In this document: piece by piece, positions 37,214 through 53,005 of the stretch | Layout: every line of letters starts with the position of its first letter | How positions within the stretch are numbered: the stretch's first letter is position 1 | Assembly (NCBI RefSeq): GCF_000426485.1 | Contig: NZ_AUFL01000016.1 | Span: forward strand, 1-64,000 | Reading direction: 5' to 3' | From: Indolivaga capnocytophagoides DSM 22835 | Lineage (GTDB): Bacteria; Bacteroidota; Bacteroidia; Bacteroidales; Dysgonomonadaceae | Length of the DNA: 64,000 nucleotides | The notes under the pieces: model-generated | Told to the model about the DNA's origin: nothing | What the model saw: only the letters and a program-made list of their open reading frames with translations | The model's database searches: none | Position numbers and translations under genes: made by a program

Positions 37214-37221
37214 ATCTTCTT

Positions 37222-38283: not shown

Positions 38284-38447
38284 TCAAAAAAAATAATTTT
38301 TACGACTATCTGTTTATGTCGCAAATATCTCCCTATAATATGGTTTTATCTGAATCAATACTACGACAAAAATGTTCATAACTTCGCTTTTTGCTTTTTC
38401 TATGGATTTTATTTCTATTTTTAGAATTAAAATAAACAGATTGAGTT

Positions 38448-39332
38448 ATGTCTAAAGAAAACTATGCTAAAATATCGGTGAATGATTTTGAAGATCAGGC
38501 TACCTCTCAAGGCATTAAGAATTTCGTTATATCAGATGACACAGCAAATATTCAAGACTATCCCTTCGATTTCAGGTATCCGCATATCGTGGAAGGAATA
38601 GCATTTGCCATCTGTGTGAAGGGAACAGGACGAATTAAGATCAACTTACGAGAATATAAGGTCGAACCCTGTACAATAATGCTTATCCTTCCGAATTATA
38701 TTTTAGAGTTATTGGAACAAAGCGATGACTTAACCATTGAGTTCTTGCTGTTTTCATTTGACTTTATTTCCGATATTAAATTGATTGCAGATGTTGATAC
38801 GCCTAAAAAAATAGATCAGAAGCCTTGTCTGAAGATTAGTGAAGAAGCAACAACCGACCTTTTGGAATTTCATGCATTCATCGTAAAACGCTACAAAAAG
38901 ACAGACATTCTTTATAGGGAAGAAATCGCACGAAGCTTACTCCAAACATTAATATATGAAGTTTTACAATTGTATCAGGACAAGAAAACCGAATCAGGAA
39001 ACAAGCCGCTTACACGGAAGGAAAAACATTTGCACAACTTCGTAAGCTTATTATTTGAATATCATATGAAGGAGAGAAGTATTGCTTTCTATGCAGATAA
39101 AATGTTTATCACTCCTAAATACTTATCACGGGTTGTGAAAGAGACAAGTGGAGTGGATATTCAGCAATGGATTGACGATATGGTAATTATGGCGGCCAAA
39201 GCGTTGCTTAAAAGTTCAAATATGACCATTCTGCAAATATCTGAAGATATGAGTTTCGCAAATCCGTCATTTTTCGGAACTTATTTTAAAAAGAGAACAG
39301 GCATGACCCCTGTCCAATATCGGGAAAGTTAA
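38448..39332 (+). CDS. AraC-family transcriptional regulator
   Basis: The protein has 294 residues. An N-terminal cupin-like sensing domain (about 45-170, FAICVKGTGRIKINLREYKVEPC) precedes the AraC HTH pair at about 190-290. The first HTH includes YADKMFITPKYLSRVVKE, and the second ends with FANPSFFGTYFKKRTGMTPVQYR, the family signature. It is encoded divergently from the MFP-RND-TolC operon across a 165-base intergenic region, the classic arrangement for a local pump activator. The effector is unknown. A terminator hairpin follows 60 bases after its stop, and the mobile element begins shortly after that. Confidence 0.92.
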   Translation: MSKENYAKISVNDFEDQATSQGIKNFVISDDTANIQDYPFDFRYPHIVEGIAFAICVKGTGRIKINLREYKVEPCTIMLILPNYILELLEQSDDLTIEFLLFSFDFISDIKLIADVDTPKKIDQKPCLKISEEATTDLLEFHAFIVKRYKKTDILYREEIARSLLQTLIYEVLQLYQDKKTESGNKPLTRKEKHLHNFVSLLFEYHMKERSIAFYADKMFITPKYLSRVVKETSGVDIQQWIDDMVIMAAKALLKSSNMTILQISEDMSFANPSFFGTYFKKRTGMTPVQYRES

Positions 39333-39430: not shown

Positions 39431-39447
39431 TTTTCTAAATCTTTTTG

Positions 39448-39462
39448 GCGGTATGGACGGGA
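39448..39462. repeat. Left attachment site (attL core)
   Basis: GCGGTATGGACGGGA is identical to 52514-52528. With the next three bases (ACTC in context) the reverse complement reads GAGTCCCGTCCATACCGCCA, the shape of a tRNA T-arm, acceptor strand and CCA. No tRNA body is attached to it. Confidence 0.65.
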
Positions 39463-39572
39463 CTCTATTCATTTTTCCACAATTTCCAATAGTTTCTAAT
39501 AATTGCTTATTATCAATATATTGCAAAATTTTATTTCTAATATTTTTTGGCTATTTCGAATAGTTTTTATAG

Positions 39573-39600
39573 ATTTGCAACACAAATACAACACAATAAA
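39573..39600. repeat. Integrase arm-site-like repeat, left copy
   Basis: This 28-base segment starts ATTTGCAACACAAAT and matches 52446-52473 at 25 of 28 positions in direct orientation. It lies just upstream of the integrase start and inside the left core site. The matching copy lies just inside the right core site, as expected for integrase arm-binding or end-specific sequences. Confidence 0.5.
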
Positions 39601-39609
39601 TTTAGCGGT

Positions 39610-40872
39610 ATGGCAAATTTATATTATCCCTACATCAAACCCAATTACGTCGCTGGCGACGGAAAGACTCCTTTGTATGTGCGTTATAACTACAATCGCA
39701 CAAAGCGCACACTTATATCTACCGGATATACTATCAAGCCCGACCATTGGGATGATAAAAAGCGTTGGATAAAACGAGCTTGTCCGGAATTTGAGGAGAT
39801 TGATTCTGCTCTGACGAAAATAACATCGAAGTTGGGAGAGATACTAACTTATGCCAAAGACAATGGTATAGACCCTATTGTTGATTTTGTGTTGCTCGAA
39901 CTGGAAAAGAACCGAGAATACGAACAACGCTCTAATCGGGTAAACATGTTCGATACATTGGAGCTTTACATTGAAGAGAAAAAAGGCAAGGTGTCTGCCG
40001 ACCAAATAAAGGACTATAAATCACTGAGAAAGCATCTAACCAATTTTAAGGAGCATTCATCTCAACCGGTTACATTCCGAAATCTTAATCTGAAATTCTA
40101 TAATGAATTTATGGATTATCTTTTCTATAAGGCAGAGAAACCGGACGGAACGATTGGGTTACTAACCAACTCTGCGGGAAAGGTTATTAGATTATTAAAA
40201 GGATTCGTTAATTACCAAATAGCTAAAGGAACTATTCCTGCGGTTGACCTTAGTCATTTTAAGGTTGTTGAAGAAGAAACAGATGCTATTTATCTAAGTG
40301 AGAATGAACTTGCCAAGATTTATAATCTTAAGCTATCAGATGACAAGGAACTGGAAGAGATTCGGGATATATTTATTGTAGGCTGTTATACAGGTTTACG
40401 ATACAGCGACCTATCTACACTTAGCCCGGAACATATTGATGTCACTAATGAAACTATCAGCTTAAAACAGAGGAAAGTCCACAAGGCTGTTATCATTCCG
40501 ATGATTGACTACGTGCCGAATATCTTAGAAAAATATAATTACGACTTGCCAAAAGTTCCCAGCTATAAATTCAATGAACGTCTAAAGGAACTTGGCAAGA
40601 AAGCCAAACTAAAACAAAAGGTAGAAGTCGTCCGTAAGAAAGGGAATCTTCGGGTAAAAGAAGTCCATGAGAAATGGGAAATGATGTCTTCACATACTTG
40701 TCGCCGATCATTCTGTACCAATATGTATCTATCCGGCTTCCCTGCCGAAGAACTTATGCGAATATCCGGACATAAAAGCCCTGCAGCCTTTATGCGATAT
40801 ATTAAGGTCGATAATATGCAGGCGGCGAACAGATTGAAAGAACTTAGACAAAAGTTGTCTAAACAAACTTAG
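39610..40872 (+). CDS. Tyrosine recombinase / phage-type integrase
   Basis: I start at the ATG at 39610 (420 residues, MANLYYPYIKPNY). The in-frame ATG at 39547 lies upstream, and using it would translate the end repeat. An N-terminal arm-binding domain (about 1-75) precedes a SAM-like core-binding domain (about 110-210) and the catalytic domain. The catalytic set is complete: Arg264 in YTGLRYSDLSTL, His362 and Arg365 in SSHTCRRSFC, His388 in SGHKSPAAFMRY and the nucleophile Tyr397. It catalyses integration and excision of the 13-kb element at the flanking 15-bp repeats. It faces inward and converges with the restriction gene, with which its end overlaps by 4 bases. Confidence 0.95.
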   Translation: MANLYYPYIKPNYVAGDGKTPLYVRYNYNRTKRTLISTGYTIKPDHWDDKKRWIKRACPEFEEIDSALTKITSKLGEILTYAKDNGIDPIVDFVLLELEKNREYEQRSNRVNMFDTLELYIEEKKGKVSADQIKDYKSLRKHLTNFKEHSSQPVTFRNLNLKFYNEFMDYLFYKAEKPDGTIGLLTNSAGKVIRLLKGFVNYQIAKGTIPAVDLSHFKVVEEETDAIYLSENELAKIYNLKLSDDKELEEIRDIFIVGCYTGLRYSDLSTLSPEHIDVTNETISLKQRKVHKAVIIPMIDYVPNILEKYNYDLPKVPSYKFNERLKELGKKAKLKQKVEVVRKKGNLRVKEVHEKWEMMSSHTCRRSFCTNMYLSGFPAEELMRISGHKSPAAFMRYIKVDNMQAANRLKELRQKLSKQT

Positions 40873-43646
40873 CTATCAATCAACACTTCCTTAACCGCAA
40901 ATCTGATTTTATAGAGATGTAAGAGTGATTTTTTGATAGACTCATAATATTCTTGAATACCATATATCTCGAATAGCATCATTTCAAAATTCACTCTATC
41001 TACCTGTTCCATTTCCTGTTCCAAATTCAATCTATCTCTCCTCATGATTGGAGCAAAAGCCTCGATTATACGTGCCTTGTCTTCGGAAGATAATATGTCA
41101 GGATTGAGCATTTTGAAATCCGATTCGAATTTGGTCGCTCTTAAATCTAATGCTCCAAGACCCCTTCCAAATCCCATGCACTCAATAAAGAACATACTTA
41201 AAATGCTATTAAAGAGTGCGAGGAATAACGATTTATCCTCTCCTCGATACTCTTCTTTCAATGATAAGCCGATTAATCTCTGGTCTATAAAAGATCGTTC
41301 CTGAAGCATTGGGATAAACAAACTCTTATCATAGTTAACATTCGCAACAAAATCAGCCATATTATCGGTTTTCATCTCATACCAATACATATTAGCTCGC
41401 TGAAGTGACTGTGTTAAGGGAACTCCTGTTTCATTAACTTGATTTTCAAAATGTCGAATCCAATTCAATGCCCCAACATGATTCAACTCTTCAAGTTCCT
41501 GAATACTTCGAGAACAGCAGAATGCATCTTTATTTGTGGTACAAGTTAATGCTGTTGTTTGTCTCAGATTTTTAAGAACTGGTTTAATATATTCTTCCTC
41601 AATTTCATGCCCTTCAGCAGGATAAAACAACTCATTCCAACCTCGCCTTTCACCTCTTGTAAAATCAAAAAATTGATTACAACTCACAATCTGATCAGCG
41701 ATCTCAGGTAGCCAGGTTATTTCAGCAAAGTACGCACACCATGGAATTCCAATAGACTCAAACTCGTGAATATTAGCAACTGTATATTGCTGATTAGTTA
41801 AATGTCGGTTTTCTCCATTCACGAGAATTGCATCTGCTACTTGTCGTGTGTCATTTACGTTTTCGATGAACTCATTCAGTGTTGTAAATGTTATAGTTCT
41901 ATCCCTATCTTCTTCTGCTCCCACAGCATTTTTCTTAGTGGCAGTTATTATAGTCGTTACTACTTCTGCATTATGAAACCATTTGCCTTTACCTGAAATA
42001 ACTATATTTTCAATACTGTAGAATTGTTGGAATAATCTTAGGAAAATATCGCCATAATCTGTCCCCATCCATGCATTAGATAAAATAAAGCCGACTTTAC
42101 TTTCTTCTCCTAATATTCTGTAAAGGTAGAAAGGGATATAGGCAAAGATATCACTTTTGCCACTTAGAGATAGATCTAGCCCTGTCTCATTTCTTATCCA
42201 TGTATTTATATCCGCTATGTCTGGATTTAATTCTTTAATAGCCTTTTCTCGTATGAAAGGTAAATTAGATACAATATAGTTCATATAAGGTAGTTCCTTT
42301 TCTACCTCCGCTCCATCATTCGGATTATGAAACTTGATTCTTTGGCCAACATTTAGTTCTATTACATCTGAACTGAAAATATTAACTATTTCGCCTATAT
42401 TATCAGGTTTTGAAAGAGTTAGTGTTGCAAGCTGTATCGGAAATGAATGCTTATCTGAAGCCCATATTGATGATAGAATTTCATTATGCGGGATATCATA
42501 TTCCTCTTTCAGCAAGTAAGCCTGATTAATAATAGTCCCGGTTCCACAGCATGGATCAAAAACATTTAATTCCTTATTCTCTATTGTTAACCGCACAAGC
42601 AGGCTAGCCAAATTTACTGGTGTTGAAAATTGGCCAGCCACCTTTCTTTTTGCGGCATCAATTGACGATTGCAACAATACATGTAACACCTCAATATCAA
42701 TATCTTGGATGTTTATAGTTGTAAGATACTGACTAATTTGTATGAGTTGCGCCCAAGCAGTAGATGAAATACACTCTTGAGCTAAGTTTTTGTTGAATAT
42801 ATTCCAGAAATCACAATTAGTCGATATATCAGAAATTATTTGTTCCGCTTCTGCAATACTAGTTGCATCAGTTATTGTTTCTATAGAGCGGGCTTCATTG
42901 AAGTAGCGTTTCAATATATGAGCGAAGACAATCTTAATAACCCAATCAGTCAAGATAACTTTTGACAAAGTTGGCAGTTGATGTGGTTTATCACTTTCTT
43001 TTGATGGATTATAGCCGTATTCAGATGCAGAGGAAAGCCACCATTGATTAATCTCGGCCGCAAACCTTGCGCTAGCTCTCATTCGCAGCTTCAAATTACC
43101 CACAGTGGATGCTACATTCTCTAGAATTACATCAATTACAGTATCTACCGCTAATATTTCGAATGCCGTATCGCTAATCTCTCCTGCTTCGAAAAAATTA
43201 TTTAAATCTTCCAGGATTTGATGCAGCAATGCCTTCCATAAAGCTTCTTTTGGTTTTACTTCATTCCTATTATTTATGTCGATACTATCCCAAGTCTTAT
43301 ATATAGAGAAAGACTCCCCATCTTTAACATATAATGCAGCGGTCTTAACATTCCAAACAAGAAAACTATCACGTTTAAGAATTCTTGCCTTTTTCTTTGC
43401 ATTATCAATTAAATCTGGGTCATTAATCGCTGTATCAGGCATTTTCAGCTCCCATCCATGAAGAATATCCTCTTTGTCAGTATCTTTGAAGAGCAATACA
43501 TCAGGAAATAAGCTCGATTTGTTTTCATTAATAGTATTTTCTCCTCCTGCGCTTTTAAAATACCATCGTTTTCTTGATAGATATAGGCAAATTTCTGAAA
43601 TGACATCAATCGCCCAACTACGTTCGTTATAATTTATTTTCGCCAT
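40869..43646 (-). CDS. Single-chain restriction-modification enzyme (PD-ExK nuclease plus N6 DNA methylase)
   Basis: I start at the ATG at 43646 (925 residues). An ATG six codons upstream is also possible. The N-terminus carries a PD-(D/E)xK pattern: Pro48-Asp49 in LFPDVLLFKD and Glu66-Leu-Lys68 in GWELKMPD. The central gamma-type methylase region has QFSTP (339-343), SAM-binding DPCCGTGTI (364-372) and catalytic motif IV reading SNLPF (460-464) instead of the usual NPPF/NPPY. The C-terminal about 300 residues should hold the target-recognition domain. This layout is that of type IIG enzymes, which cut and methylate with one chain. The upstream methyltransferase gene overlaps its start by 20 bases, so the two are translationally coupled. 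The recognition sequence cannot be predicted. Confidence 0.82.
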   Translation of the reverse strand: MAKINYNERSWAIDVISEICLYLSRKRWYFKSAGGENTINENKSSLFPDVLLFKDTDKEDILHGWELKMPDTAINDPDLIDNAKKKARILKRDSFLVWNVKTAALYVKDGESFSIYKTWDSIDINNRNEVKPKEALWKALLHQILEDLNNFFEAGEISDTAFEILAVDTVIDVILENVASTVGNLKLRMRASARFAAEINQWWLSSASEYGYNPSKESDKPHQLPTLSKVILTDWVIKIVFAHILKRYFNEARSIETITDATSIAEAEQIISDISTNCDFWNIFNKNLAQECISSTAWAQLIQISQYLTTINIQDIDIEVLHVLLQSSIDAAKRKVAGQFSTPVNLASLLVRLTIENKELNVFDPCCGTGTIINQAYLLKEEYDIPHNEILSSIWASDKHSFPIQLATLTLSKPDNIGEIVNIFSSDVIELNVGQRIKFHNPNDGAEVEKELPYMNYIVSNLPFIREKAIKELNPDIADINTWIRNETGLDLSLSGKSDIFAYIPFYLYRILGEESKVGFILSNAWMGTDYGDIFLRLFQQFYSIENIVISGKGKWFHNAEVVTTIITATKKNAVGAEEDRDRTITFTTLNEFIENVNDTRQVADAILVNGENRHLTNQQYTVANIHEFESIGIPWCAYFAEITWLPEIADQIVSCNQFFDFTRGERRGWNELFYPAEGHEIEEEYIKPVLKNLRQTTALTCTTNKDAFCCSRSIQELEELNHVGALNWIRHFENQVNETGVPLTQSLQRANMYWYEMKTDNMADFVANVNYDKSLFIPMLQERSFIDQRLIGLSLKEEYRGEDKSLFLALFNSILSMFFIECMGFGRGLGALDLRATKFESDFKMLNPDILSSEDKARIIEAFAPIMRRDRLNLEQEMEQVDRVNFEMMLFEIYGIQEYYESIKKSLLHLYKIRFAVKEVLIDS

Positions 43647-44910
43647 AATATTGATAATCAGCAATAAGTTTTGTTTCTTTATATAATACTTTATGATATT
43701 CTGCGATTGGCTCTTGAAATAATTTTAAAGTCGCATCTTCTATTTCTTTTCTTTTTAGTGCTTCCTTTATTCTATTGATGCTGATTTCAACATAATCGAC
43801 AATATCAACCTTATGCAATAAAGCATTTTCATTTTTTTCAATGCCAATGAATTGTCGATTTTCAAGCAATGCAGAGACTAGAAAACTACCACTTCCACAA
43901 GCATTATCCAAAACAATATCTCCAGGCTTCGTATATGTTTTTATTAAATATCGACCTAATTCCACTGGTTTTTGTGTCGGGTGCACCACTGGTCCTTCAC
44001 TTTCTGCCGTTTTAATATAAATATAATCATCAACAGGTACATCATCATAAAAAATAACATCATTAGGGTATCGCTTCCCGTTACTTTTTACATGTTTAGG
44101 CTTAAAATCACCATAACTACCTGTATTTTGATCTTTTCTGACCCCTTTGTCATAGGGTTCTCCATCAGTCATTTGAGGATTATATGTTGGCTGCTTTTTG
44201 TAAAAGATACAAACATCTTCATGCTTTCTAAGAGGTTGTTTCTTTGCATTGAGAAAATTTGTTGGTTTAGATTTTATCCAAACAATCTTATATTTAAACA
44301 ATTTCTCATTACTACATATGAGTTTAGCGGTAAAAACACCTTGAGCTGTTAGAGCAATTACTCCATCATCTTTTATTATTCGTTCATATTCTGTCCATAA
44401 TTCTTCTAAATTGATAACAGAATCCCATTTATTTTGCGTTGTCCCATATGGAAGGTCGCATAAAATCATATCAATAGATTTATCTGGAATAATTTGCATA
44501 ACCTCTAAACAGTCACCCTGTATAACCTTATTAACTATACTGTTGATATCCTGTAGCTGCTTGGGATTCCCATTTAATTCATAGGAAAATTCTTTTTTAT
44601 TTGTAGTATAATATTTGATTTTTGATTCCGCAACTTTCAATGTTTCAATGTCAACATCCTCCTCTATAATCCTATAGGCAAATTGATCACTCAAGAATTC
44701 AGCCAGTAGTTTTTTCTCATCTATAATAAAAAAAGAAGCGATGTTTCTTATTTGTTGTCTTGTTGGCAACCTTTCGTTTCTCTCTATTTTTGCAAGTAGA
44801 GAAGAGTCTATGCTTATATTTGCTGAGACATCTTTCAAGCTAAAACCTGCAGTTTCCCTTAATCTCCTAAGGTGCTCACCAAAAGTAATGTTTTGATTTA
44901 TATTATTCAT
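43627..44910 (-). CDS. XRE-HTH fused beta-class DNA methyltransferase
   Basis: The protein has 427 residues. Residues about 9-66 form a Cro/CI-type HTH (LRETAGFSLKDVSANISIDSSLLAKIE). A linker of about 60 residues follows. The methyltransferase domain has motif IV DLPYGTTQNKWD (152-163) before HPTQKP (310-315) and the SAM-binding DNACGSGSF (335-343), the order of beta-class N6-adenine or N4-cytosine enzymes. The HTH fusion suggests that it represses its own promoter, as seen for some methyltransferases and C-proteins. A perfect palindrome 45 bases upstream is a fitting operator. It is coupled to the single-chain restriction enzyme downstream and likely protects the same or the complementary half-site strand. 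Confidence 0.88.
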   Translation of the reverse strand: MNNINQNITFGEHLRRLRETAGFSLKDVSANISIDSSLLAKIERNERLPTRQQIRNIASFFIIDEKKLLAEFLSDQFAYRIIEEDVDIETLKVAESKIKYYTTNKKEFSYELNGNPKQLQDINSIVNKVIQGDCLEVMQIIPDKSIDMILCDLPYGTTQNKWDSVINLEELWTEYERIIKDDGVIALTAQGVFTAKLICSNEKLFKYKIVWIKSKPTNFLNAKKQPLRKHEDVCIFYKKQPTYNPQMTDGEPYDKGVRKDQNTGSYGDFKPKHVKSNGKRYPNDVIFYDDVPVDDYIYIKTAESEGPVVHPTQKPVELGRYLIKTYTKPGDIVLDNACGSGSFLVSALLENRQFIGIEKNENALLHKVDIVDYVEISINRIKEALKRKEIEDATLKLFQEPIAEYHKVLYKETKLIADYQYYGENKL

Positions 44911-44954
44911 TATGATTCGATATTTTCAGCAAAGGTAGTAAATAAAACCACAAT

Positions 44955-44971
44955 TGGACAAATTTTGTCCA
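44955..44971 (-). promoter_or_regulatory. Palindromic operator upstream of the XRE-methyltransferase
   Basis: TGGACAA (44955-44961) and TTGTCCA (44965-44971) form a perfect 7-3-7 inverted repeat, 45 bases ahead of the methyltransferase start on the minus strand. An XRE-type dimer would fit this spacing. The GGACAA half-site recurs upstream of the excisionase-like gene and near the element's right end. Confidence 0.5.
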
Positions 44972-44986
44972 CAATGTTTTCTTTAT

Positions 44987-45409
44987 CTATTTTTCCGGTT
45001 TCATTTCCTCATACATTTGATACCAATACACCGCTTTCTCTTTCCATTCCCTATATTCATGTATGAAATATCCGGAAAGAAATGCCGATGCCAGTGTGAT
45101 AACCCACATAGCAATATACCATTTCAAGCCTTTAGATGGCTGTTTGACTTTTCGGAGCTTATTCTCCATTTCGTTGATGAAGTTCCGGTTCAGTTGCTCA
45201 AACTTAGCCGTATCAATTGAAATCCGTCTCTCGTATAGGATATTCACGCTCTCCCTGACTTGGCTTGCCGCTTCATCGTTCGTCTGAGATATTTCCCGAA
45301 GTCGGTCGATTTGAGCGGACAGGATGTTATCTACTGTTTCGCGGGAAATATCTTCCTTGCCTGCGAACTTATTTCTTCGCTTGGTAGGTTTATTATTGCT
45401 GTCGTCCAT
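44987..45409 (-). CDS. Small membrane protein of the mobilization module
   Basis: The protein has 140 residues. A charged, coiled-coil-prone N-terminal part (about 10-90, rich in Glu, Arg and Asn) is followed by one transmembrane helix at about 97-116 (WYIAMWVITLASAFLSGYFI) and a short charged tail. It starts inside the end of the relaxase gene (17-base overlap). Small one-helix proteins in this place are common behind relaxases of Bacteroidota mobilizable elements. Docking of the relaxosome at the membrane is a plausible but unproven role. No named domain was recognised. Confidence 0.75.
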   Translation of the reverse strand: MDDSNNKPTKRRNKFAGKEDISRETVDNILSAQIDRLREISQTNDEAASQVRESVNILYERRISIDTAKFEQLNRNFINEMENKLRKVKQPSKGLKWYIAMWVITLASAFLSGYFIHEYREWKEKAVYWYQMYEEMKPEK

Positions 45410-46334
45410 AATATCGTTTTTTAGTTTTCTTCTTTTTATGTTTCAATGTATTATCATCTTCTTCAGGACTATGTCCATTGGGAGTAAGCAGATCGGCCAA
45501 TAGCGAAGCAATACTGGGGCTTACTCCCGAATAGGATTGTTGATTGCCTACATCTTGGTTGTAGTTCTGCTGAACCTGTTGCGAATGGCTCTCTCCCGGT
45601 GAAGAAGAAAAGTTCTTGGTAAGCGAACGAAATCCGAACTCCTTTCCGATTTCTGAAGCCTTGAATGTCTCCCCCTCGTAAGTGAACCGAATGCCATAGA
45701 TCTTGCCCTGTTTATTCTTTGCGGGTTCAATGCTGATACCCTCTTCCTCCAATCCATGCAAAAAGTCCTCTAAACTCGCATTTCTGAATAATTCATAATA
45801 AGCAATCTTTTGGAGCTTCTCTTTTGTCTGCTGACGTGCCGGGTCTGCATAGGTTTCCTGATGCTCTTTTTGTTTCTGAACATCTTTGGCAATCGTTAAT
45901 CCCATTTCACGGCTTATCTCTTCCGCTATTTTTGCCGAACGATTACTCATAAAGGTGGTGTCGAATACTTTACTATCAACCCCGATACGGTTTGCTATCA
46001 AATGGATATGCGGTTTTCCGGTGTCTTTATGGGTACAGGCTATCCATTGATTATTCAGCAACCCCATTTTATTGGCGAATGTCCGAGCAATCTTAATCAT
46101 ATCTCCCGGCTTTAGCTTGTCTATATCCTTTGGAGATATGCCTATCTCGTAACGCATATACTTGTTTTTACATCGGTAGTTGTGCTGATTAACCATTTCA
46201 AACTCCCGGAGAATGTCGACAGGCGTATCACTCTCAATCATGTTCCTGCCGACTATCTTATCCAGTTTGCCCTCACGCAAGGCGTATTCAATCGCATTGC
46301 CTCCGTGTGCTATCGCTTTTCCTTTTCCAATCAT
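45393..46334 (-). CDS. Relaxase / mobilization nuclease (Bacteroidota MobB type)
   Basis: I start at the ATG at 46334 (313 residues, MIGKGKAIAHGG), the conserved beginning of this relaxase group. It stands 4 bases after the end of the accessory mobilization gene. The longer reading frame to 46394 overlaps that gene. The metal-binding histidine motif is KPHIHLIANRI with His109 and His111. A candidate nicking tyrosine lies near the N-terminus (Tyr17 or the YRCKNKYMRY region), but I cannot assign it. The Ser/Gln-rich C-terminus and basic tail (KHKKKKTKKRYYG) look like a DNA- or partner-binding extension. It nicks oriT and leads the strand into a recipient through a helper conjugation system. Confidence 0.88.
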   Translation of the reverse strand: MIGKGKAIAHGGNAIEYALREGKLDKIVGRNMIESDTPVDILREFEMVNQHNYRCKNKYMRYEIGISPKDIDKLKPGDMIKIARTFANKMGLLNNQWIACTHKDTGKPHIHLIANRIGVDSKVFDTTFMSNRSAKIAEEISREMGLTIAKDVQKQKEHQETYADPARQQTKEKLQKIAYYELFRNASLEDFLHGLEEEGISIEPAKNKQGKIYGIRFTYEGETFKASEIGKEFGFRSLTKNFSSSPGESHSQQVQQNYNQDVGNQQSYSGVSPSIASLLADLLTPNGHSPEEDDNTLKHKKKKTKKRYYGRQQ

Positions 46335-46338
46335 ACGC

Positions 46339-46638
46339 TTAGAAGAATCGGTTATACAATTGCCGGGATTGTTCCAGATACTCCGCAATGGCAACGACTA
46401 ATTGCGGGTCTTTGTTTCGTATCAGGTTGGAGAGCCGGGAAATGGCATTATTATGTTCTTTCAGTTCCCGGAAGTATGCTATTTCTGTCGGGCTTAGCTT
46501 CGGGCTGGCAAGTATCCGACCGGTCAGGCATTGCTTCCGACAATACTCGGAAAGGCTTACCCCCGACCTTTTAGCCATGCCCTCGATTCTCTCTTTTTCT
46601 GATTTAGTACAACGAAATTTTATATAGCTATTTTTCAT
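46339..46638 (-). CDS. Mobilization accessory protein, ribbon-helix-helix (MobC/MobA-like)
   Basis: The protein has 99 residues. The N-terminal ribbon-helix-helix (KFRCTKSEKERIEGMAKRSGVSLSEYCRKQCL) matches the relaxosome accessory proteins called MobA in Bacteroides elements and MobC elsewhere. These bind oriT and help the relaxase. The C-terminal half is helical (HNNAISRLSNLIRNK). The gene lies directly between the candidate oriT and the relaxase gene, in the expected order. Confidence 0.88.
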   Translation of the reverse strand: MKNSYIKFRCTKSEKERIEGMAKRSGVSLSEYCRKQCLTGRILASPKLSPTEIAYFRELKEHNNAISRLSNLIRNKDPQLVVAIAEYLEQSRQLYNRFF

Positions 46639-46644
46639 TTTTAT

Positions 46645-46778
46645 CTGATTATATGAATTAAAAACTGTCGAGAGCGAAGCGATTGCAGTTCCCCCGCCAG
46701 CGAAAGCGGTTCAGGCGGCAAGCGCAGTTTGTGGTAACAAACTGACGTCTTGCAATGCACTTCGCGCATAGGGTAGCA
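46645..46778. other. Candidate origin of transfer (oriT)
   Basis: This 134-base intergenic stretch lies between the primase end and the mobilization gene start. It is far more GC-rich than its surroundings and dense in inverted repeats. A perfect hairpin CAGTTTGT-GGTA-ACAAACTG spans 46725-46744. A second set is CCGC/GCGG and CCGCC/GGCGG at about 46694-46717. Position directly ahead of mob genes plus hairpins is the usual signature of oriT. The nick site is not identified. Confidence 0.55.
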
Positions 46779-47702
46779 CTACAACCCGCGCCCTTTCTTT
46801 CTCATTGGAATCTGCCGTTTAAATGAGGAGACGGCATTGTTCTCTCCGACCTCTTTTTTCGGCTTGGACTTATCCCGCCAGTAATCGTTCAGGTCTTTAT
46901 GGTTTCGATAGAAAACAGACTGGTCGATTACTTCTTTACCTACCGGGCTTAAACTCTGAACAGCCCGCTTTCCGGCTTCATCGTTATCAAAGAAGGCGTG
47001 TATTGTTTGGTGGGTTTGAAGAAACGGAATCGCTTTCGGAAGATTGGCGATTGAGTTTAATATCGCCGAATCGATTTTTGGCGAAACATTCTGTTTTAAT
47101 GAGAGATAAGAGAGAAAATCCATAAAACCCTCGAATACCATAACCGAATTGCTACCGTTGTTTATAATCGTGATATTCTTCGGGGTGGTACTTCCTTTGA
47201 AATATCTGTTCCGGAGCTCCCAGCCTCCGGCATCGTTCCGAAAGCCAACAGCAAAATAAGGTTTGTCCGCAATGGAATAATGGACTTCCGAACAATGGTG
47301 CTTTGCAATATCGGTATCTATACCACGCTCTTTCAGGTAATCAAGTAAAGCGGAATGATTGAGCGGTTGTATATCGGTAATGGTTAGTGCCGATTCTCGG
47401 TTTGTCGGTTTCGAAGAAACCTCCGGAATGTTATTCCGATGAAAGGAAAAAGAGTTTTCCAACTGCCGGAATGCTTCTGCCAGCGAACAATTCTCTAATT
47501 TCATCACAAGGTCAACTATTGAACCGCCCTCATCCGCTCCGAAGTCGTACCATAAATCTTTGTCGTAATCGACTTTGAAACTCGGGTTATTGTCATCCCT
47601 CAAAGGAGAGATATACATTCCATAATATCCCCGGTCTTTTACGGGATGGATTCCTTTATTATCAAGGTATTGTTTTATACTGATATAATTTGAATTTTTC
47701 AT
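46779..47702 (-). CDS. TOPRIM-domain DNA primase-like protein
   Basis: The protein has 307 residues. An N-terminal CHC2-like fold (about 5-85) retains the frame ISPLRDDNNPSFKVD and the GGSIVDLVMKLENCSLAEA region, but the zinc-ligand Cys/His residues of true CHC2 primases are absent. The TOPRIM domain follows, with Glu191 in MVFEGFMDFLSYL and the acidic pair DND at 239-241 in FFDNDEAGKRA. Such short primase-like proteins are standard in Bacteroidota mobilizable elements and act in element replication with a helicase, here the VapE protein upstream. The 236-base gap between the two carries repeats described separately. Confidence 0.87.
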   Translation of the reverse strand: MKNSNYISIKQYLDNKGIHPVKDRGYYGMYISPLRDDNNPSFKVDYDKDLWYDFGADEGGSIVDLVMKLENCSLAEAFRQLENSFSFHRNNIPEVSSKPTNRESALTITDIQPLNHSALLDYLKERGIDTDIAKHHCSEVHYSIADKPYFAVGFRNDAGGWELRNRYFKGSTTPKNITIINNGSNSVMVFEGFMDFLSYLSLKQNVSPKIDSAILNSIANLPKAIPFLQTHQTIHAFFDNDEAGKRAVQSLSPVGKEVIDQSVFYRNHKDLNDYWRDKSKPKKEVGENNAVSSFKRQIPMRKKGRGL

Positions 47703-47809
47703 TTTCTTATTTTTTAGCTGTTTTACTTACTACATAAGTCAATCTGTTTATCACGCTGATAATCAATTATATTTATGTAGTATGATTCTTTTCTGTAGTA
47801 ACTACTACT

Positions 47810-47918
47810 TTGTAGTAAGGTAGTAGGATGAGAGTAAGATGCGGATTTTGCTTCTTACTACGTCTTAATCCCTTTTCTTTCATTGGAATATATAGGATTG
47901 TAGTAAGGTAGTAAGAAG
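47810..47918. repeat. Iteron-like repeat cluster between VapE and primase genes
   Basis: TTGTAGTAAGGTAGTA occurs twice, at 47810-47825 and 47898-47913. An inverted copy of the overlapping tail is also present: CTTCTTACTAC at 47851-47861 and GTAGTAAGAAG at 47908-47918. Further GTAGTA units lie at 47795-47810. The cluster fills the 236-base gap (47703-47938) in the replication module and is a candidate origin or helicase/primase-binding region. Confidence 0.5.
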
Positions 47919-47938
47919 AATAAGCCATATCTGTATTT

Positions 47939-49156
47939 CTATATATCACGGTCGTAGAATGGATTCGGCATGATTTTCTTTATCCGGTAGCATTGAATCG
48001 GATTAGCTCCTTTCGTCAATCGTTTGGATAGTCGGTCAAATTCCGCTTTACGCAAGGCTTCCCCCATTCGCTTTTCGGACATCTTGACCAAAGTATATGC
48101 CTGTAAGTAGCTTAATACCTCAGAAGTCGTCATATAACATTCTTCATCAGCTTCCGGCTTCTCGAATCCTTTCAATAGCATTTCATATTCGGCCGTCTGT
48201 ACATGGAATTGTTGGCTGAGCCTGTGCAGTTCCGCGATCTCTTCCTCGACAAACCAATAACGATAGCCGTTATCCAGTAGCCACATCACTTCAGAGAATA
48301 CATTATCCATATTGATTTGTTCCGCTGTCTTGATGTCGATGCTGAGAACCTCGAACGGTAAGAACCTACGGCTTCCGGTCGGGTCGGTTAGAAAATCATT
48401 ACCGTTGACCGATGCCATAAAGCTGGCTAAATGAGGGTATTCTTCGATATACACATCATAAGGTCGACGGTATTTAACTGCCGGAGTCGTTATCAGGTTC
48501 TTCAATTCGTTTTCATCCCGCTTGTTCAAGGCTTTCAACTGGTCATCGATATTGATAAACAGGTATTCGGCAATCATTGTCAGTACATCTTTATTCTGCG
48601 GGTCTATCTTTCCGGTAAACAGATAGCTTTTTAACGACTGCGGGCAGAGATGGTCTAACCATGTTGTTTTGAACCGCCCCTGCTCTCCAGTCAAAACCAA
48701 ACAAGTATGGTTTTGACAGCCTACATCTTCTAGCGCATTGGCACTCACACCCATTAACCATTTGGTTAGGTATTCATTCCATTTTTCAGGGTTGGCGGTG
48801 GTTACGGTCTGCGCTAATTGAGAAATGTATTGGTTTTTGTCAGGTTCAAGACGTGGTAATTGCCGAAAATAGTCTTTTACTGGATGCACCTTTGGCGAAA
48901 AGTCACTTTCAAGAATGGTTCGGATGTTCTCTGCCGATGTAGAAATGCCCAGTTCGGTATCAATCCGCCGTTTGAACGAATTGAGGGCAAACTTGGTAAC
49001 AGGCTGAAACGGATAATTGCTGTTCTTTATTCGATACTCCGGTTTGGATTTTATCACATTGAAACGGAAATCGTACTTCTCCTGAAAGTGTACCTCAATC
49101 CGTTCGTTCTTGGATTGGCGGACGGAAGAATCTGTTTTCTTTTTCATCGGAATCAA
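47939..49156 (-). CDS. VapE-domain P-loop helicase/ATPase
   Basis: This 405-residue protein of the virulence-associated protein E family is a superfamily-3-like ATPase found in phages and integrative elements. Walker A is GEQGRFKTTW (157-166). Walker B-like YLFINIDDQLKAL follows near 195-207, then the segment YRRPYDVYIEEYPHLASFMASVN and the sensor-like GSRRFLPFEV, all typical of VapE. The C-terminal part may bind DNA. It overlaps the excisionase-like gene by 4 bases, indicating coupled translation. With the TOPRIM protein it probably replicates the excised element. An ATG three codons downstream is an alternative start. Confidence 0.88.
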   Translation of the reverse strand: MIPMKKKTDSSVRQSKNERIEVHFQEKYDFRFNVIKSKPEYRIKNSNYPFQPVTKFALNSFKRRIDTELGISTSAENIRTILESDFSPKVHPVKDYFRQLPRLEPDKNQYISQLAQTVTTANPEKWNEYLTKWLMGVSANALEDVGCQNHTCLVLTGEQGRFKTTWLDHLCPQSLKSYLFTGKIDPQNKDVLTMIAEYLFINIDDQLKALNKRDENELKNLITTPAVKYRRPYDVYIEEYPHLASFMASVNGNDFLTDPTGSRRFLPFEVLSIDIKTAEQINMDNVFSEVMWLLDNGYRYWFVEEEIAELHRLSQQFHVQTAEYEMLLKGFEKPEADEECYMTTSEVLSYLQAYTLVKMSEKRMGEALRKAEFDRLSKRLTKGANPIQCYRIKKIMPNPFYDRDI

Positions 49157-49437
49157 GATTCTTCTGTCGTTCTACATCGGTTTAGGATAAAGTTTAGAAT
49201 CTCCTCCTTATTATAGAAAATCAACTTTTCGCCGAAACGGTATTCTTTATAATGACCGAGTCGGGCATATTTGCGGACGGTAGGCGCAGAGGCTTTCAGA
49301 AGTTTGGTTGCCTCTTTCATCTTGATTAGGTTACTCATCGCCTTATCAACCGGCGACACTTGCTCTTCAGGAATACTGTTCTCAACAGCTTCCTCATTTT
49401 CTGAATTTCTCCAGAATTGATAAAATTTCTTCTTCAT
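49153..49437 (-). CDS. Helix-turn-helix (excisionase-type) DNA-binding protein
   Basis: The protein has 94 residues. The C-terminal half is a MerR/excisionase-like winged helix: IKMKEATKLLKASAPTVRKY followed by the wing GEKLIFYNKEEILNFI. The N-terminus is acidic and variable. Proteins of this kind sit at the head of replication and mobilization operons in Bacteroidota elements and act as directionality factors or transcription activators. The upstream region holds three phased GGACAA-type sites that it, or the XRE-methyltransferase, could bind. Confidence 0.85.
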   Translation of the reverse strand: MKKKFYQFWRNSENEEAVENSIPEEQVSPVDKAMSNLIKMKEATKLLKASAPTVRKYARLGHYKEYRFGEKLIFYNKEEILNFILNRCRTTEES

Positions 49438-49512
49438 CTTTCGAATAATTTACGTTAATCGGAAGACAAATGTATATAACAAAATCTCTATAAATAAGCA
49501 ACTTGCGCTATC

Positions 49513-49549
49513 GGGACAACATAGGACAACCTCTCACAGAATGGGACAA
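49513..49549. repeat. Phased GGACAA repeats upstream of the excisionase-like gene
   Basis: GGGACAA at 49513-49519, AGGACAA at 49523-49529 and GGGACAA at 49543-49549 start 10 and 20 bases apart, so they share one DNA face. They lie 76-112 bases ahead of the HTH gene start on the minus strand. AATGGGACAA of the third copy recurs at 52430-52439. Confidence 0.5.
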
Positions 49550-49608
49550 GTCCACTTGCTATGACAAGAGTAAAATAAGGAGGATAAATAGAAAATAAGG
49601 GGAGAATA

Positions 49609-50343
49609 TCAGGCTTTAACCGATAGGTTTTCCATATCCTTTTTGATGATGGGAGTCACTTTCTCAAGCCCGATTTCGGAATAGAATTCCCGGATAGTAT
49701 CCAAATGCTTTAGAAGAGTTTTGCTATCTACGTTACTACGGTTCAATGAGGGATTGGCGTGTAGTTTCGTATCGGACGGAGCTATTTTTTCTCCGATAAG
49801 CGTTTTCCATGCTAGTAATCTATCTTCGGGAGTGTATGCCGGGATAAGTTCCGAAGCTAATAGATAGCCGAAAATACGGTCACCTAATTGCTTACGACCT
49901 TTTATAGAATAACATTTGAGAATTTTATCTTTTACTACTTGTATCGTATCTTCTTTTGTTAAGTTGTTGATTTGTGTAAGAGGAGATATGCCATATAATA
50001 TGGATTTTATAGCTTCATCAGATATATCATCCTGCATGAATAGCTTCTCTACTTCTTCACGCTTATTTCTTATTATCTCAGCTATATGTTTTTGTTCTCT
50101 ACCTGTTCCAAAAAGCAAATTAAAAAAAGGAATGATGCTGGATATCTTTAGCACCGTATTGGTTTCTTCGGAAATTTTAGCACAGTCATCTAAAAAAACG
50201 CTTAAGTCTGTTATTTTTCCCTTGTTATATTGCAACTTAAAACTGGCATAATAGAATTTTAGGATGGAAACATCAGATGTTCCCAGCAAATTCTCATTAT
50301 ACATTTTACGATACCTACTCATATAATCCCAAATTGGATTCAC
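49609..50343 (-). CDS. Uncharacterised protein of the mobile element
   Basis: The protein has 244 residues and I do not recognise the family. It has no signal peptide or clear membrane helix. The middle (about 70-100) holds IIPFFNLLFGTGREQKHIAEI, followed by a helical Lys/Glu-rich section. The C-terminal 80 residues contain LLAWKTLIGEKIAPSDTKLHANPSLNRS and a final helix EFYSEIGLEKVTPIIKKDM. It is encoded divergently from the Mrr nuclease gene (113-base gap) and upstream of the excisionase-like gene. It could belong to either module. The composition is mostly helical and consistent with a regulator or scaffold. Confidence 0.7.
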   Translation of the reverse strand: MNPIWDYMSRYRKMYNENLLGTSDVSILKFYYASFKLQYNKGKITDLSVFLDDCAKISEETNTVLKISSIIPFFNLLFGTGREQKHIAEIIRNKREEVEKLFMQDDISDEAIKSILYGISPLTQINNLTKEDTIQVVKDKILKCYSIKGRKQLGDRIFGYLLASELIPAYTPEDRLLAWKTLIGEKIAPSDTKLHANPSLNRSNVDSKTLLKHLDTIREFYSEIGLEKVTPIIKKDMENLSVKA

Positions 50344-50456
50344 AAAAATAAGCAGTTTTTGTGTAATTACCAGTAATTACCCATGAGGATTATGCTGTTT
50401 CCCCTAAAAACCATAAATTATTCGTAAATTGCAGCGATTTAAATTCTTAGAACAAT

Positions 50457-51329
50457 ATGGGAAGGAAGAAAACAAATGACAGAGTCCCTACTTATGATAA
50501 ACTATTAGTTCCGACGCTGAAAGCCTTGAAACTATTAGGTGGCTCCGGTTCTATCGAGGAAATTAATGAGAAAGTATATGAGATAGCTAATCTTGACGAA
50601 GAAACATTAAGTATTCCTCATAAAGAGGGTGGAATGCAAAGCAAAGTTGATTATAGACTTGCTTGGGCAAGAACCTATCTTAAGAAGTATGGATTGATCG
50701 AAAATTCATCAAGAGGAATCTGGGTGTTGATAAATAATGATATAAATCCAGATTCCTTCAAATCAAATGAGATTGTAAAAAAGGTAAGGGCTGATGATAA
50801 GAGGGATGAAAAAGAACTTATTCCCTTAGATAAATTAGATACGGTTGTTGAAGACGAAACTGATGAATTAAATTGGAAAGAAAATCTCTTAAAGGTTGTT
50901 CAAAGTATTGAACCATCAGCATTCGAGAGACTTTGCCAAAGAATATTAAGAGAAAGTGGATTTGTTCAGGTTGAAGTTACTGGAAAATCCGGAGATGGAG
51001 GCCTTGATGGTAAAGGCATTGTCAGACTAAATGGATTTCTAAGCTTTCATGTTTTCTTTCAATGCAAAAGATTTAAGGATTCAGTAGCATCAAGTTATAT
51101 TAGAGATTTTAGAGGAGCAATGCAGGGAAGAGCTGATAAAGGATTGTTTATAACCACTGGAAAATTTACACGTGAAGCATTAAAAGAAGCATCAAGAGAT
51201 GGTGCGCCTCCAATAGATTTAATAGATGGTGATTTGTTGTGTGAGAAATTGAAGGAATTTAATCTTGGGGTTAAAACTGAATTAATAGAAGAGGTAACTA
51301 TCAATCCTGAATGGTTTGAAAAAATTTAA
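50457..51329 (+). CDS. Mrr-type restriction endonuclease
   Basis: The protein has 290 residues. The N-terminal winged-helix Mrr domain (about 12-95) is followed by an acidic linker and the Mrr catalytic domain (about 140-260). Catalytic residues of the PD-(D/E)xK fold are visible: Asp184 in GKSGDGGLDGKG and Gln202-Cys-Lys204 in FFQCKRFK, with the preceding ESGF segment. Mrr enzymes cut methylated DNA without a cognate methylase. A self-harm risk with the element's own methyltransferases is worth noting. It is the first gene of a plus-strand three-gene run with the NDT-like and small-protein genes (19- and 3-base gaps), so it is likely part of a combined defence unit. Confidence 0.93.
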   Translation: MGRKKTNDRVPTYDKLLVPTLKALKLLGGSGSIEEINEKVYEIANLDEETLSIPHKEGGMQSKVDYRLAWARTYLKKYGLIENSSRGIWVLINNDINPDSFKSNEIVKKVRADDKRDEKELIPLDKLDTVVEDETDELNWKENLLKVVQSIEPSAFERLCQRILRESGFVQVEVTGKSGDGGLDGKGIVRLNGFLSFHVFFQCKRFKDSVASSYIRDFRGAMQGRADKGLFITTGKFTREALKEASRDGAPPIDLIDGDLLCEKLKEFNLGVKTELIEEVTINPEWFEKI

Positions 51330-51348
51330 GCTAATAATCTGATATACG

Positions 51349-52062
51349 ATGATGAAAAAAGAAGATAAGAAAATATGTTTTGTGATATCCCCCATTGGAG
51401 AGGGAGGTTCTGAAACCAGAACCCGTTCGGATCAAATATTAAAACACATCATTACGGAACCAGTATCGCAATTAGGATATGAAGTTATTAGGGCTGATAA
51501 AATCTCTGAACCAGGAATTATTACAACCCAAATTATTGAATACATAGTAGATGCAGAGCTTGTAATTGCAGATTTAACTGAACATAATCCAAATGTGTTT
51601 TATGAATTGGCAATTAGGCATGCAATGAGGAAACCACTCGTCCAAATAATAAGAAAGGGTGATATTATCCCTTTTGATGTTGCCGCGACAAGAGTAATAC
51701 AATTTGACCTCCTTGATTTGGATAGCGTTGCAGCTGCAAAAGAAGAAATATCATCGCAAGTAAAATCTATTGAATCTATTGAAACAGGAGGTAACGAAGT
51801 TCAAAACCCTATATCTGTATCCTTAGACTTAAAGGTTTTGAAAGAAAGTGGAGACGCAGAGGAGCGGTCTTTGGCTGATATTGTTGAAGCAATTTCCGAC
51901 TTACGATTAGCCGTTGCTGGTATAGATAAAGGATTACAGTCCTCTAAATTAACGGAAGAGTTGAAAACTAAGATAGAAGCATTACCTTCTTTAATTGATA
52001 ATAGATTATATGACCCCGAAAGAAGGAGGCGAAGGAAATTTCATCCAATGATGTTAGATTAA
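51349..52062 (+). CDS. Nucleoside-deoxyribosyltransferase/TIR-like domain protein
   Basis: The protein has 237 residues. The N-terminal about 125 residues form a Rossmann-like domain. It has CFVISPIG (10-17), TRSDQILKHII and the block DLTEHNPNVFYELAIRH (75-91) with Glu86 in the position of the catalytic Glu of nucleoside 2-deoxyribosyltransferases. This family (often annotated as uncharacterised or TIR-like) includes N-glycosidic-bond enzymes and suspected effectors in bacterial immunity. The C-terminal half is helical and ends in a basic tail with RRRRRKFHP. It starts 19 bases after the Mrr gene and is 3 bases ahead of the small gene. Whether it cleaves nucleotides or senses them cannot be told from sequence. 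Confidence 0.82.
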   Translation: MMKKEDKKICFVISPIGEGGSETRTRSDQILKHIITEPVSQLGYEVIRADKISEPGIITTQIIEYIVDAELVIADLTEHNPNVFYELAIRHAMRKPLVQIIRKGDIIPFDVAATRVIQFDLLDLDSVAAAKEEISSQVKSIESIETGGNEVQNPISVSLDLKVLKESGDAEERSLADIVEAISDLRLAVAGIDKGLQSSKLTEELKTKIEALPSLIDNRLYDPERRRRRKFHPMMLD

Positions 52063-52065
52063 ATA

Positions 52066-52371
52066 ATGCATATGGAAATGAAAGAAGAAAATCCAGCCAT
52101 AAGTTTTTTGATGATGATTAGCTTATTCAAGGATGATTTTCCTTGGATATATGAGATTGGGCTTGAAACTTATAAGGTTCTTAAATCTTCAAAATCCAAA
52201 TCAGAAAAAGAAAAATCTCTTAAAACCTTCGAACGCTCATTGGAGATGCTTGGACATCCAATGTATAGGGAAATATTCGGTAAATCAGAAGAATTATATA
52301 TGTTTAGTAAAGATATGAGGCATTATACACGCCGTTATTTGGAACGATATTATCAAGAAGAACTGAAATAA
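52066..52371 (+). CDS. Small uncharacterised protein in the Mrr/NDT-like cassette
   Basis: The protein has 101 residues and is predicted to be all helical. It has no signal peptide. It contains DDFPWIYEIGLETYKVL, a Lys/Ser-rich turn KSSKSKSEKEKSLKTFERS and a Tyr/Arg-rich C-terminus DMRHYTRRYLERYYQEELK. I do not know the family. Because it starts 3 bases after the NDT-like gene it is almost surely co-transcribed and may be a regulator, antitoxin-like partner or adaptor of that protein. The internal ATGs (MHMEM) leave the exact start uncertain by two codons. Confidence 0.72.
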   Translation: MHMEMKEENPAISFLMMISLFKDDFPWIYEIGLETYKVLKSSKSKSEKEKSLKTFERSLEMLGHPMYREIFGKSEELYMFSKDMRHYTRRYLERYYQEELK

Positions 52372-52445
52372 TTTCCTAAATTAACTTGTTCTGCTAATAT
52401 TTCCCTGTGTTGCACAATGGCGGGAAAGGAATGGGACAAATGCGA

Positions 52446-52473
52446 ATTTGCAACACAAATGCAATACAGTAAA
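52446..52473. repeat. Integrase arm-site-like repeat, right copy
   Basis: This is the direct partner of 39573-39600 (25 of 28 bases equal, first 15 identical). It lies 40 bases inside the right core site. Confidence 0.5.
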
Positions 52474-52477
52474 AAAC

Positions 52478-52511
52478 AAAAGCCTGTCAATCAATCGATT
52501 AACAGGCTTTT
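52478..52511. terminator. Hairpin terminator at the element's right end
   Basis: AAAAGCCTGT (52478-52487) and ACAGGCTTTT (52502-52511) make a perfect 10-bp stem with a 14-base loop and A/T-rich outer ends. It can end the plus-strand Mrr cassette. It also stands directly next to the right core site, in the same relation as the left hairpin to the left core. Confidence 0.65.
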
Positions 52512-52513
52512 CT

Positions 52514-52528
52514 GCGGTATGGACGGGA
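52514..52528. repeat. Right attachment site (attR core)
   Basis: This is the second copy of GCGGTATGGACGGGA. The sequence beyond it (TCCATTATTTTTTAG) is not tRNA, so the match to a tRNA 3' end stops at the core. Confidence 0.65.
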
Positions 52529-53005
52529 TCCATTATTTTTTAGTTAAATAGCTACATTTCAAATATTTGCTTCACTCGTTTTTTCTAAGGTGAACACTTT
52601 AGGATATTTCAAAATATCACATTTTGTCTTACTATTGAACACACTTGTCCGTACATTAATTACTCATTACAAATATAATATATTTTAATTGCATACTAAA
52701 GCTTAAAGAATTAATAAGTATTATCTTTTCAATCTATGTACTCGTATAGCCTACAATATCAATTGGTATTCTTATCCTAAATGCTATTTTCTCTAGCCTT
52801 TGTTTAAAACTGTTTTAGATTATGAACTGTTATATACAAACACAAAGGCTTGGGTATAGTTTACTACGACCAAGTTAGGACCTAAAGTTGTTGGGCTAAA
52901 GCAGTACATATGCTGTAAACCACATGAAGTAAAGGATCTCTTTAATGTAATAAATCCCTGATATAATAAGATAACAGGCTTTATAAAGATTTAATAGCTG
53001 AAAAA
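52529..53005. other. Gene-free flank right of the element
   Basis: This stretch of about 475 bases is AT-rich. I see no reading frame with family features, no tRNA and no strong hairpin. It must include the promoter of the LLM oxidoreductase gene. Confidence 0.4.

Follow-up and report, generated by a model that had tools for sequence, protein, structure and literature searches.

One in-frame stop codon divides the second gene of a putative two-gene Mrr and NDT/TIR-like defence cassette in a mobilizable element of Indolivaga capnocytophagoides

The window analysed here is a stretch of 64,000 nt from Indolivaga capnocytophagoides DSM 22835 (contig NZ_AUFL01000016.1). Three consecutive open reading frames lie near the right boundary of a mobile element in this window, and the initial annotation described them as a candidate three-gene defence cassette consisting of an Mrr nuclease, an NDT/TIR-like protein and a small protein as presumed regulator. 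The cassette is composed of two defence genes, the second of which is cut by one stop codon in this genome. The defence-like setting, the Mrr nuclease and the NDT/TIR-like domain are thus retained from the earlier description, but the three-gene system with a separate regulator is not. It is fairly probable, in our judgement, that the second gene encodes a single-protein abortive-infection effector resembling Swarozyc, i.e., a TIR-like enzyme with a C-terminal sensor, which stands beside a separate type IV nuclease. Coordinates are listed in Table 1.

Table 1. Positions of the element, the cassette reading frames and the in-frame stop codon in the window
Feature	Position	Strand	Remarks
Mobilizable element, ~13.1 kb	39441..52528		Att-like 22-base direct repeat; cassette at right end
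Integrase	39547-40872		In element
Relaxase	45393-46394		In element
Type IV restriction endonuclease of the Mrr type, 290 aa (ORF 1)	50457..51329	+	Mrr_N + Mrr_cat, catalytic residues intact
NDT/TIR-like protein, first part, 237 aa (ORF 2)	51349..52062	+	DrHyd/NDT-like domain, helical linker, TAA end
In-frame TAA stop between NDT-like protein and its C-terminal domain (CTD)	52060..52062	+	Read through in 4/4 NDT-CTD relatives found
Rest of ORF 2 frame, 101 aa, most of helical CTD (ORF 3)	52066..52371	+	CTD common to TIR proteins

The three frames are all on the plus strand and have the order and spacing first reported, with 19 bases between ORF 1 and ORF 2 and 3 bases between ORF 2 and ORF 3. 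ORF 2 and ORF 3 are in the same frame and are separated by the single TAA. In all four distinct relatives found in which an NDT-like domain is joined to the CTD, the corresponding stretch forms a single uninterrupted frame, 337-338 aa long. These NDT-CTD proteins are those of Parabacteroides sp. PH5-46 (L006), Dysgonomonas sp. BGC7 (L007, apparently one contig with G054 and counted once), and the loci L003 and L004. The stop codon of the window is absent from all four. Where ORF 3 was taken to begin, L003 has a codon other than ATG, GTG or TTG, with an ATG found two codons further on. When ORF 3 was used to search 150 relative genomes, five gave a match, the window's own genome among them. Each of the other four matches lies inside an open frame of 339-354 codons, with an NDT-like domain ahead of it in G054, G071 and G002 and a TIR domain in G042 (L005). 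A scan of genome contigs gave six loci, of which L006 and L007 have an NDT-like domain and L008-L011 have TIR domains. Since ORF 3 is in frame with ORF 2, and the frame is uninterrupted in 4/4 relatives, the cassette consists of two genes with the second interrupted. A separate small regulator gene was rejected on the same grounds: the 101-residue protein, earlier assigned to a separate gene, is the second protein's C-terminal domain.

ORF 1 is matched by the Pfam profiles Mrr_N (E 2.9e-17) and Mrr_cat (E 2.7e-28), and Asp184 and QCK 202-204, both noted earlier, are intact. It has the combination by which Mrr type IV enzymes are recognized, an Mrr_cat domain with D...QxK plus Mrr_N. A PDB sequence search with the Mrr protein gave a best E of only 0.0094. 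Mrr-family enzymes cut DNA bearing modified bases. The window protein shares the domains and the intact catalytic residues of the type IV enzymes, and only its neighbour is notable.

The annotation first made placed the cassette on the right-hand side of a mobile element, and this is confirmed. The att-like direct repeat (39441-39462 and 52507-52528) is 91% alike over 22 bases; this repeat and the end of homology with L006 and L007, at 52526-52529, bound the element. In addition to the integrase and relaxase genes, the element contains two DNA-methylase genes, NikA-like mobilization genes, a primase-like gene and a VapE-like gene. At 40869-44910 it encodes an N6-methylase-type protein of 931 aa and a methyltransferase that has an HTH at its N-terminus, so that an R-M-like system may be present in addition to the cassette. 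A gene for a 244-aa protein (49609-50343) is divergent from the cassette, and relatives of it occupy the corresponding site in L006 and L007. It shows a weak match to PADLOC BrxP (E 0.0016), with Pfam below cut-off, and is possibly part of the element backbone. Directly to the left of the element, at 34106-39332, are RND-type efflux genes and an AraC-looking regulator, named by eye.

A same-strand gene is found directly before the NDT-CTD gene in 5/5 loci, with gaps of 19, 16, 20 and 6 bases in the four loci measured. This gene encodes Mrr in four loci on related elements, which are the window, L006, L012 (G002) and L013 (G071, with the Mrr gene spread over two frames), and a TIR protein in the fifth, L007. 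The L007 gene, encoding a 285-aa coiled-coil TIR protein, stands where Mrr stands in the window, and its product matches PADLOC PDC-S66 (E 1.2e-90) and a ThsB model (E 1.4e-43). DNA homology between the window and L007 extends up to 50314, is absent across the Mrr gene, and is present again from 51349, the start of the NDT-like frame, to 52529, the end of the element. A different pattern is seen with L012 and L013. The backbone genes are 67-80% alike up to 49361, an unmatched stretch follows, and the Mrr + NDT-CTD block is 76-77% alike from ~50413 to 52375. Thus the pair can travel together and the upstream member can differ. Broken Mrr copies were also observed in relatives, with a frameshift in G071 (L013/L003) and stops in G061 (L142/L162); single cassette genes therefore decay in relatives too.

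The constancy of an upstream gene raises the question of whether the two genes form one two-component system, in which the upstream Mrr or TIR protein would detect or mark the infection and the NDT-CTD protein would be its obligate partner, the upstream member being exchangeable as in Thoeris-like pairs. We regard this as rather unlikely. The 5/5 loci with their short gaps argue for it, as does the Mrr + NDT-CTD block common to L012 and L013, beside which the adjoining gene differs. Also in its favour is a distant pair in G294, where an Mrr gene (312 aa) and an NDT-like gene (347 aa) are 6 bases apart. However, the pairing is seldom seen in a wider sample. There are 26 Mrr genes in 23/199 relative genomes (28 rows in the census, two genes being in two pieces), and an NDT-like neighbour was found at 3 and none seen at 23, within flanks of up to 1.5 kb whose downstream side is cut by the contig end in at least L139 and L153. 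A TIR gene (E<=1e-15) is present in 9/199 genomes, and NDT-CTD in one of these nine (G054). The three-gene adjacency expected from the initial annotation was rejected on the same survey, with 23/26 Mrr genes lacking a visible NDT-like neighbour and three separate frames seen only in the window.

The neighbours of NDT-like genes were also surveyed, with HMMs made here, at 48 places outside the window among 395 genomes of the window's class, some of the stretches being cut by contig ends. Mrr adjoins the NDT-like gene at 1/48 places (L204, the G294 pair). A TIR gene lies within ~2.5 kb at 6/48, which is consistent with a two-component system; one of the six is a 70-aa edge piece and one is two genes off. 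Against such a system, three relatives of the G294 protein were found among 87 genomes of its order, and Mrr is present in the fetched flanks of 0/3. Viral contigs point the same way: in the best 80 of 360 relatives an NDT-like ORF is present in all 80 and an Mrr-like ORF ~3.5 kb off in 2, and neither a TIR gene nor the CTD was found within up to 4 kb. The survey covers a few hundred genomes, and rarer pairings may therefore exist. At L250:1-580, the gene beside a G294-type NDT-like protein has a SIR2-looking start, as judged by eye.

The exchange of the upstream gene can be read in another way, which we consider improbable. Exchangeable upstream detectors, either a modified-DNA nuclease or a TIR enzyme, would be joined to a DrHyd-type N-glycosidase effector with a sensor shared with TIR proteins, nuclease attack would be linked to nucleotide depletion, and the effector and sensor of the window would be two coupled proteins. 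If true, DNA cutting and nucleotide depletion would be linked in one modular cassette. A two-step pathway, nuclease first and nucleotides second, such as had been proposed, may exist, but nothing found here requires it.

The second protein has its DrHyd/NDT-like domain at approximately residues 7-145 of ORF 2, with a catalytic-type Glu86 at 51604-51606. The DLTEHNPNVFYELAIRH block, attributed from the start to NDT/TIR-like enzymes, is present. No Pfam or NCBIfam match to ORF 2 was detected at E<=1. ORF 2 does match PHROG 3634 (E 5.7e-52), a family of unknown function, and its NDT domain matches a PADLOC TIR-effector model (E 4.7e-8). The NDT profile PF05014 did not match the window ORF (E<=1) or L006 (E<=0.1), and its match to the distant relative L043 (E 0.011) does not pass the cut-off. 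The best result of a PDB sequence search with the NDT ORF was a weak match to Rcl/DNPH1 (E 0.07), in which the Glu is aligned.

Structure prediction upholds the NDT/TIR-like assignment. An AlphaFold2 model was made for the intact relative L006 from a 50-sequence alignment (A4), with a mean pLDDT of 80.8, a pTM of 0.51, and values mostly of 90-97 in the blocks of the N-terminal domain. A Foldseek search of this model against the PDB gave 13 matches at E<=0.001, and these are MilB, DNPH1, nucleoside deoxyribosyltransferase and TIR-STING structures. The matches to MilB, DNPH1 and NDT extend from E 1.2e-4 to about 4e-3. The best are to MilB (CMP/hydroxymethyl-CMP) and human DNPH1 and are at least as good as the TIR matches; thus the substrate is not fixed by the fold. 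A profile comparison of 15 NDT-like with 8 TIR domains (probability 89.9, E 1.7e-6) places the family Glu on the TIR Glu. Conservation was counted over rows 1-45 of A4, which include the window CTD fragment, a gap here. N81, N83, Y86, E87, P109, F110 and D111 (L006 numbering) are found in 44/44 rows with a residue. The position of the Rcl/DNPH1 Asp is D in 30, E in 9, R in 3 and P in 2 of the same 44 rows; in NDT and DNPH1 this Asp, like the Glu, is an active-site residue. The predicted Rossmannoid alpha/beta domain, the conserved active-site residues and the relation to TIR fit the TIR-DrHyd-SLOG kind, as this clade is described in PMC9503650, and the predicted fold is that of NDT, DNPH1, MilB and TIR proteins, although the domain fails the Pfam NDT profile.

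The top fold matches, together with the aligned Glu of the weak Rcl/DNPH1 match and the attack of Mrr enzymes on modified DNA, could be taken to indicate that NDT-CTD is a hydrolase of modified deoxynucleotides, DNPH1- or MilB-like, that partners Mrr against modified-base phages. There is perhaps a slim chance of this. The upstream gene of L007 is TIR and not Mrr, the CTD is common to TIR proteins, neither the window protein nor L006 is matched by PF05014, and the Asp position of NDT and DNPH1 varies as given above.

In other bacteria, related NDT-like domains are fused to TPR-S (L020, L023) or to AbiJ_NTD5 (L034). The domain is also present in 40/50,697 phage records, and 35 of the 40 are Streptococcus or Staphylococcus phages. 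In two of these phages (L054, L055), Streptococcus phage SM1 and one of Staphylococcus, the genes immediately flanking the NDT-like gene are on the other strand, an arrangement often seen with cargo genes.

The CTD is the part of the second protein that is shared with another kind of enzyme. None of four profile libraries (Pfam, PADLOC, NCBIfam and PHROG) gave a match to ORF 3. The loci collected contain 16 distinct CTD proteins, one being window ORF 3; the other 15 are 4 NDT-CTD proteins, 10 TIR-CTD proteins and one (L052) that starts at a contig end. A free-standing CTD of ~100 aa is not found among these 15, one of which is cut by the contig end. The TIR label of the TIR-CTD proteins is from HMMs built here. 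Four of them were also scanned with Pfam TIR_2 and gave E values of 1.7e-6 to 1.3e-5, with L011 alone passing Pfam's own cut-off. No Mrr or NDT-like match was detected in the 10 TIR-CTD loci. Two viral contigs were obtained with the CTD query, L051, with a TIR domain and the CTD, and L052, with the cut CTD protein. The CTD was not matched in plasmids, and the cassette DNA gave 2 weak partial plasmid matches.

A model of the CTD (119 residues, mean pLDDT 83.1, from a 9-sequence alignment) is all-helical, and the invariant positions are D, F, P, W, Y, E, P and E. A fold search against the PDB gave no E under 1, with a best E of 1.0. The position of the CTD behind two different nucleotide-acting domains suggests that it may be a sensor or oligomerization module. 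In addition, L011 matches the PADLOC model 'TIR-TM' (PDLC03016) over residues 7-324 of 350 (E 2.1e-115); the TIR version of the CTD protein is thus already listed as a defence candidate. The matches of L005 and L008 to PDLC03016 are weaker than that of L011, and L006 has none at E<=0.01.

The codons on both sides of the stop bear on its age. Where L006 and L007 agree, the codons changed in the window alone number 25 synonymous and 5 non-synonymous ahead of the stop, against 9 synonymous and 4 non-synonymous beyond it. The equivalent count for L006 is 17 synonymous and 1 non-synonymous before the stop position and 3 and 2 after it. The changes after the stop are too few to show decay, and thus the stop may be young, tolerated, or a sequencing error. 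With effector and CTD separated, a loss or change of function would be expected, and gene 2 is probably impaired, inactive or deregulated in this genome, unless its two halves still associate. An ATG 3 bases past the stop, in the same frame, is a possible reinitiation start, and the halves may perhaps be coupled in this manner. A functional split, in which termination-reinitiation would yield a separate CTD and a regulated effector of two proteins, is compatible with this ATG and with the open and little changed CTD frame, but it is very unlikely, because the split is found in the window genome only, the frame is fused in 4/4 NDT-CTD relatives, and the stop could equally well be a sequencing error or a nonsense mutation that arose recently.

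In the reading we prefer, that of a single-protein effector beside a separate nuclease, Mrr would cut modified phage DNA independently. The NDT-like domain would cleave an N-glycosidic bond, most likely in NAD+ and possibly in another nucleotide. The CTD would keep this enzyme off until a phage-derived trigger is bound or oligomerization takes place. Once released, the enzyme would deplete NAD+ or the other nucleotide, and infection would be aborted, with phage growth stopped along with the cell, as in Swarozyc. Mrr and gene 2 are probably cotranscribed and would act in parallel, not as one pathway.

The exchange of the CTD between TIR and NDT/DrHyd-like effectors suggests that one regulatory module serves two kinds of enzyme, and the logic of Swarozyc, an enzyme with a C-terminal sensor, would extend to domains that have no Pfam match here. 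The end of the mobilizable element appears as a slot in which the gene before the effector differs between sister elements. The window also provides a warning, in that one stop codon can make a single gene mimic a new three-gene system.

Several known systems are related to the cassette. In a preprint (PMC13174449), Swarozyc is described as a TIR/NDT-like domain (the DUF4062 NADase) with a C-terminal domain that senses the phage portal, and nucleotide depletion is reported there to abort infection. On that description, Swarozyc and NDT-CTD share an N-terminal TIR/NDT-like domain with a key Glu, a helical stalk and a C-terminal auxiliary domain. However, Swarozyc is defined by DUF4062 (PF13271), which was not detected in the window ORFs (E<=1) or in L006 (E<=0.1). 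The C-terminal auxiliary domain of Swarozyc is HTH/winged and portal-binding; the CTD of the window type is predicted to be all-helical, with no PDB fold match. The DrHyd, NDT, DNPH1 and MilB proteins have the predicted fold and the catalytic-type Glu in common with NDT-CTD, but the latter fails the Pfam NDT profile, is fused to the CTD, and lies beside a restriction gene. A DrHyd + Mrr pair is not described in the open-licence literature passages available, and those of PMC9503650 contain none on an Mrr enzyme. No deoxyribosyltransferase-TIR defence system of this make is named in open-licence titles and the starts of abstracts, which is weak evidence.

With Thoeris (a ThsB TIR protein plus ThsA) there is a likeness in L007, where the upstream TIR protein matches the ThsB model and adjoins a nucleotide-acting type of protein, but the cassette proteins of the window have no Pfam TIR or ThsA match. 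A run of genes in a Kapaibacterium MAG (L008:2961-6321) encodes a DUF4062 protein, a ThsB-like TIR protein, a 161-aa protein and a TIR-CTD protein. PADLOC 'TIR-TM' (PDLC03016), a name not found in the open-licence literature (weak evidence), has the same CTD in L011, with a TIR N-terminus in place of the NDT/DrHyd-like one of NDT-CTD. The cassette is probably a variant of a kind already known, Swarozyc-like, and what remains of interest is the exchange of NDT-like and TIR domains on one CTD together with the exchangeable upstream gene.
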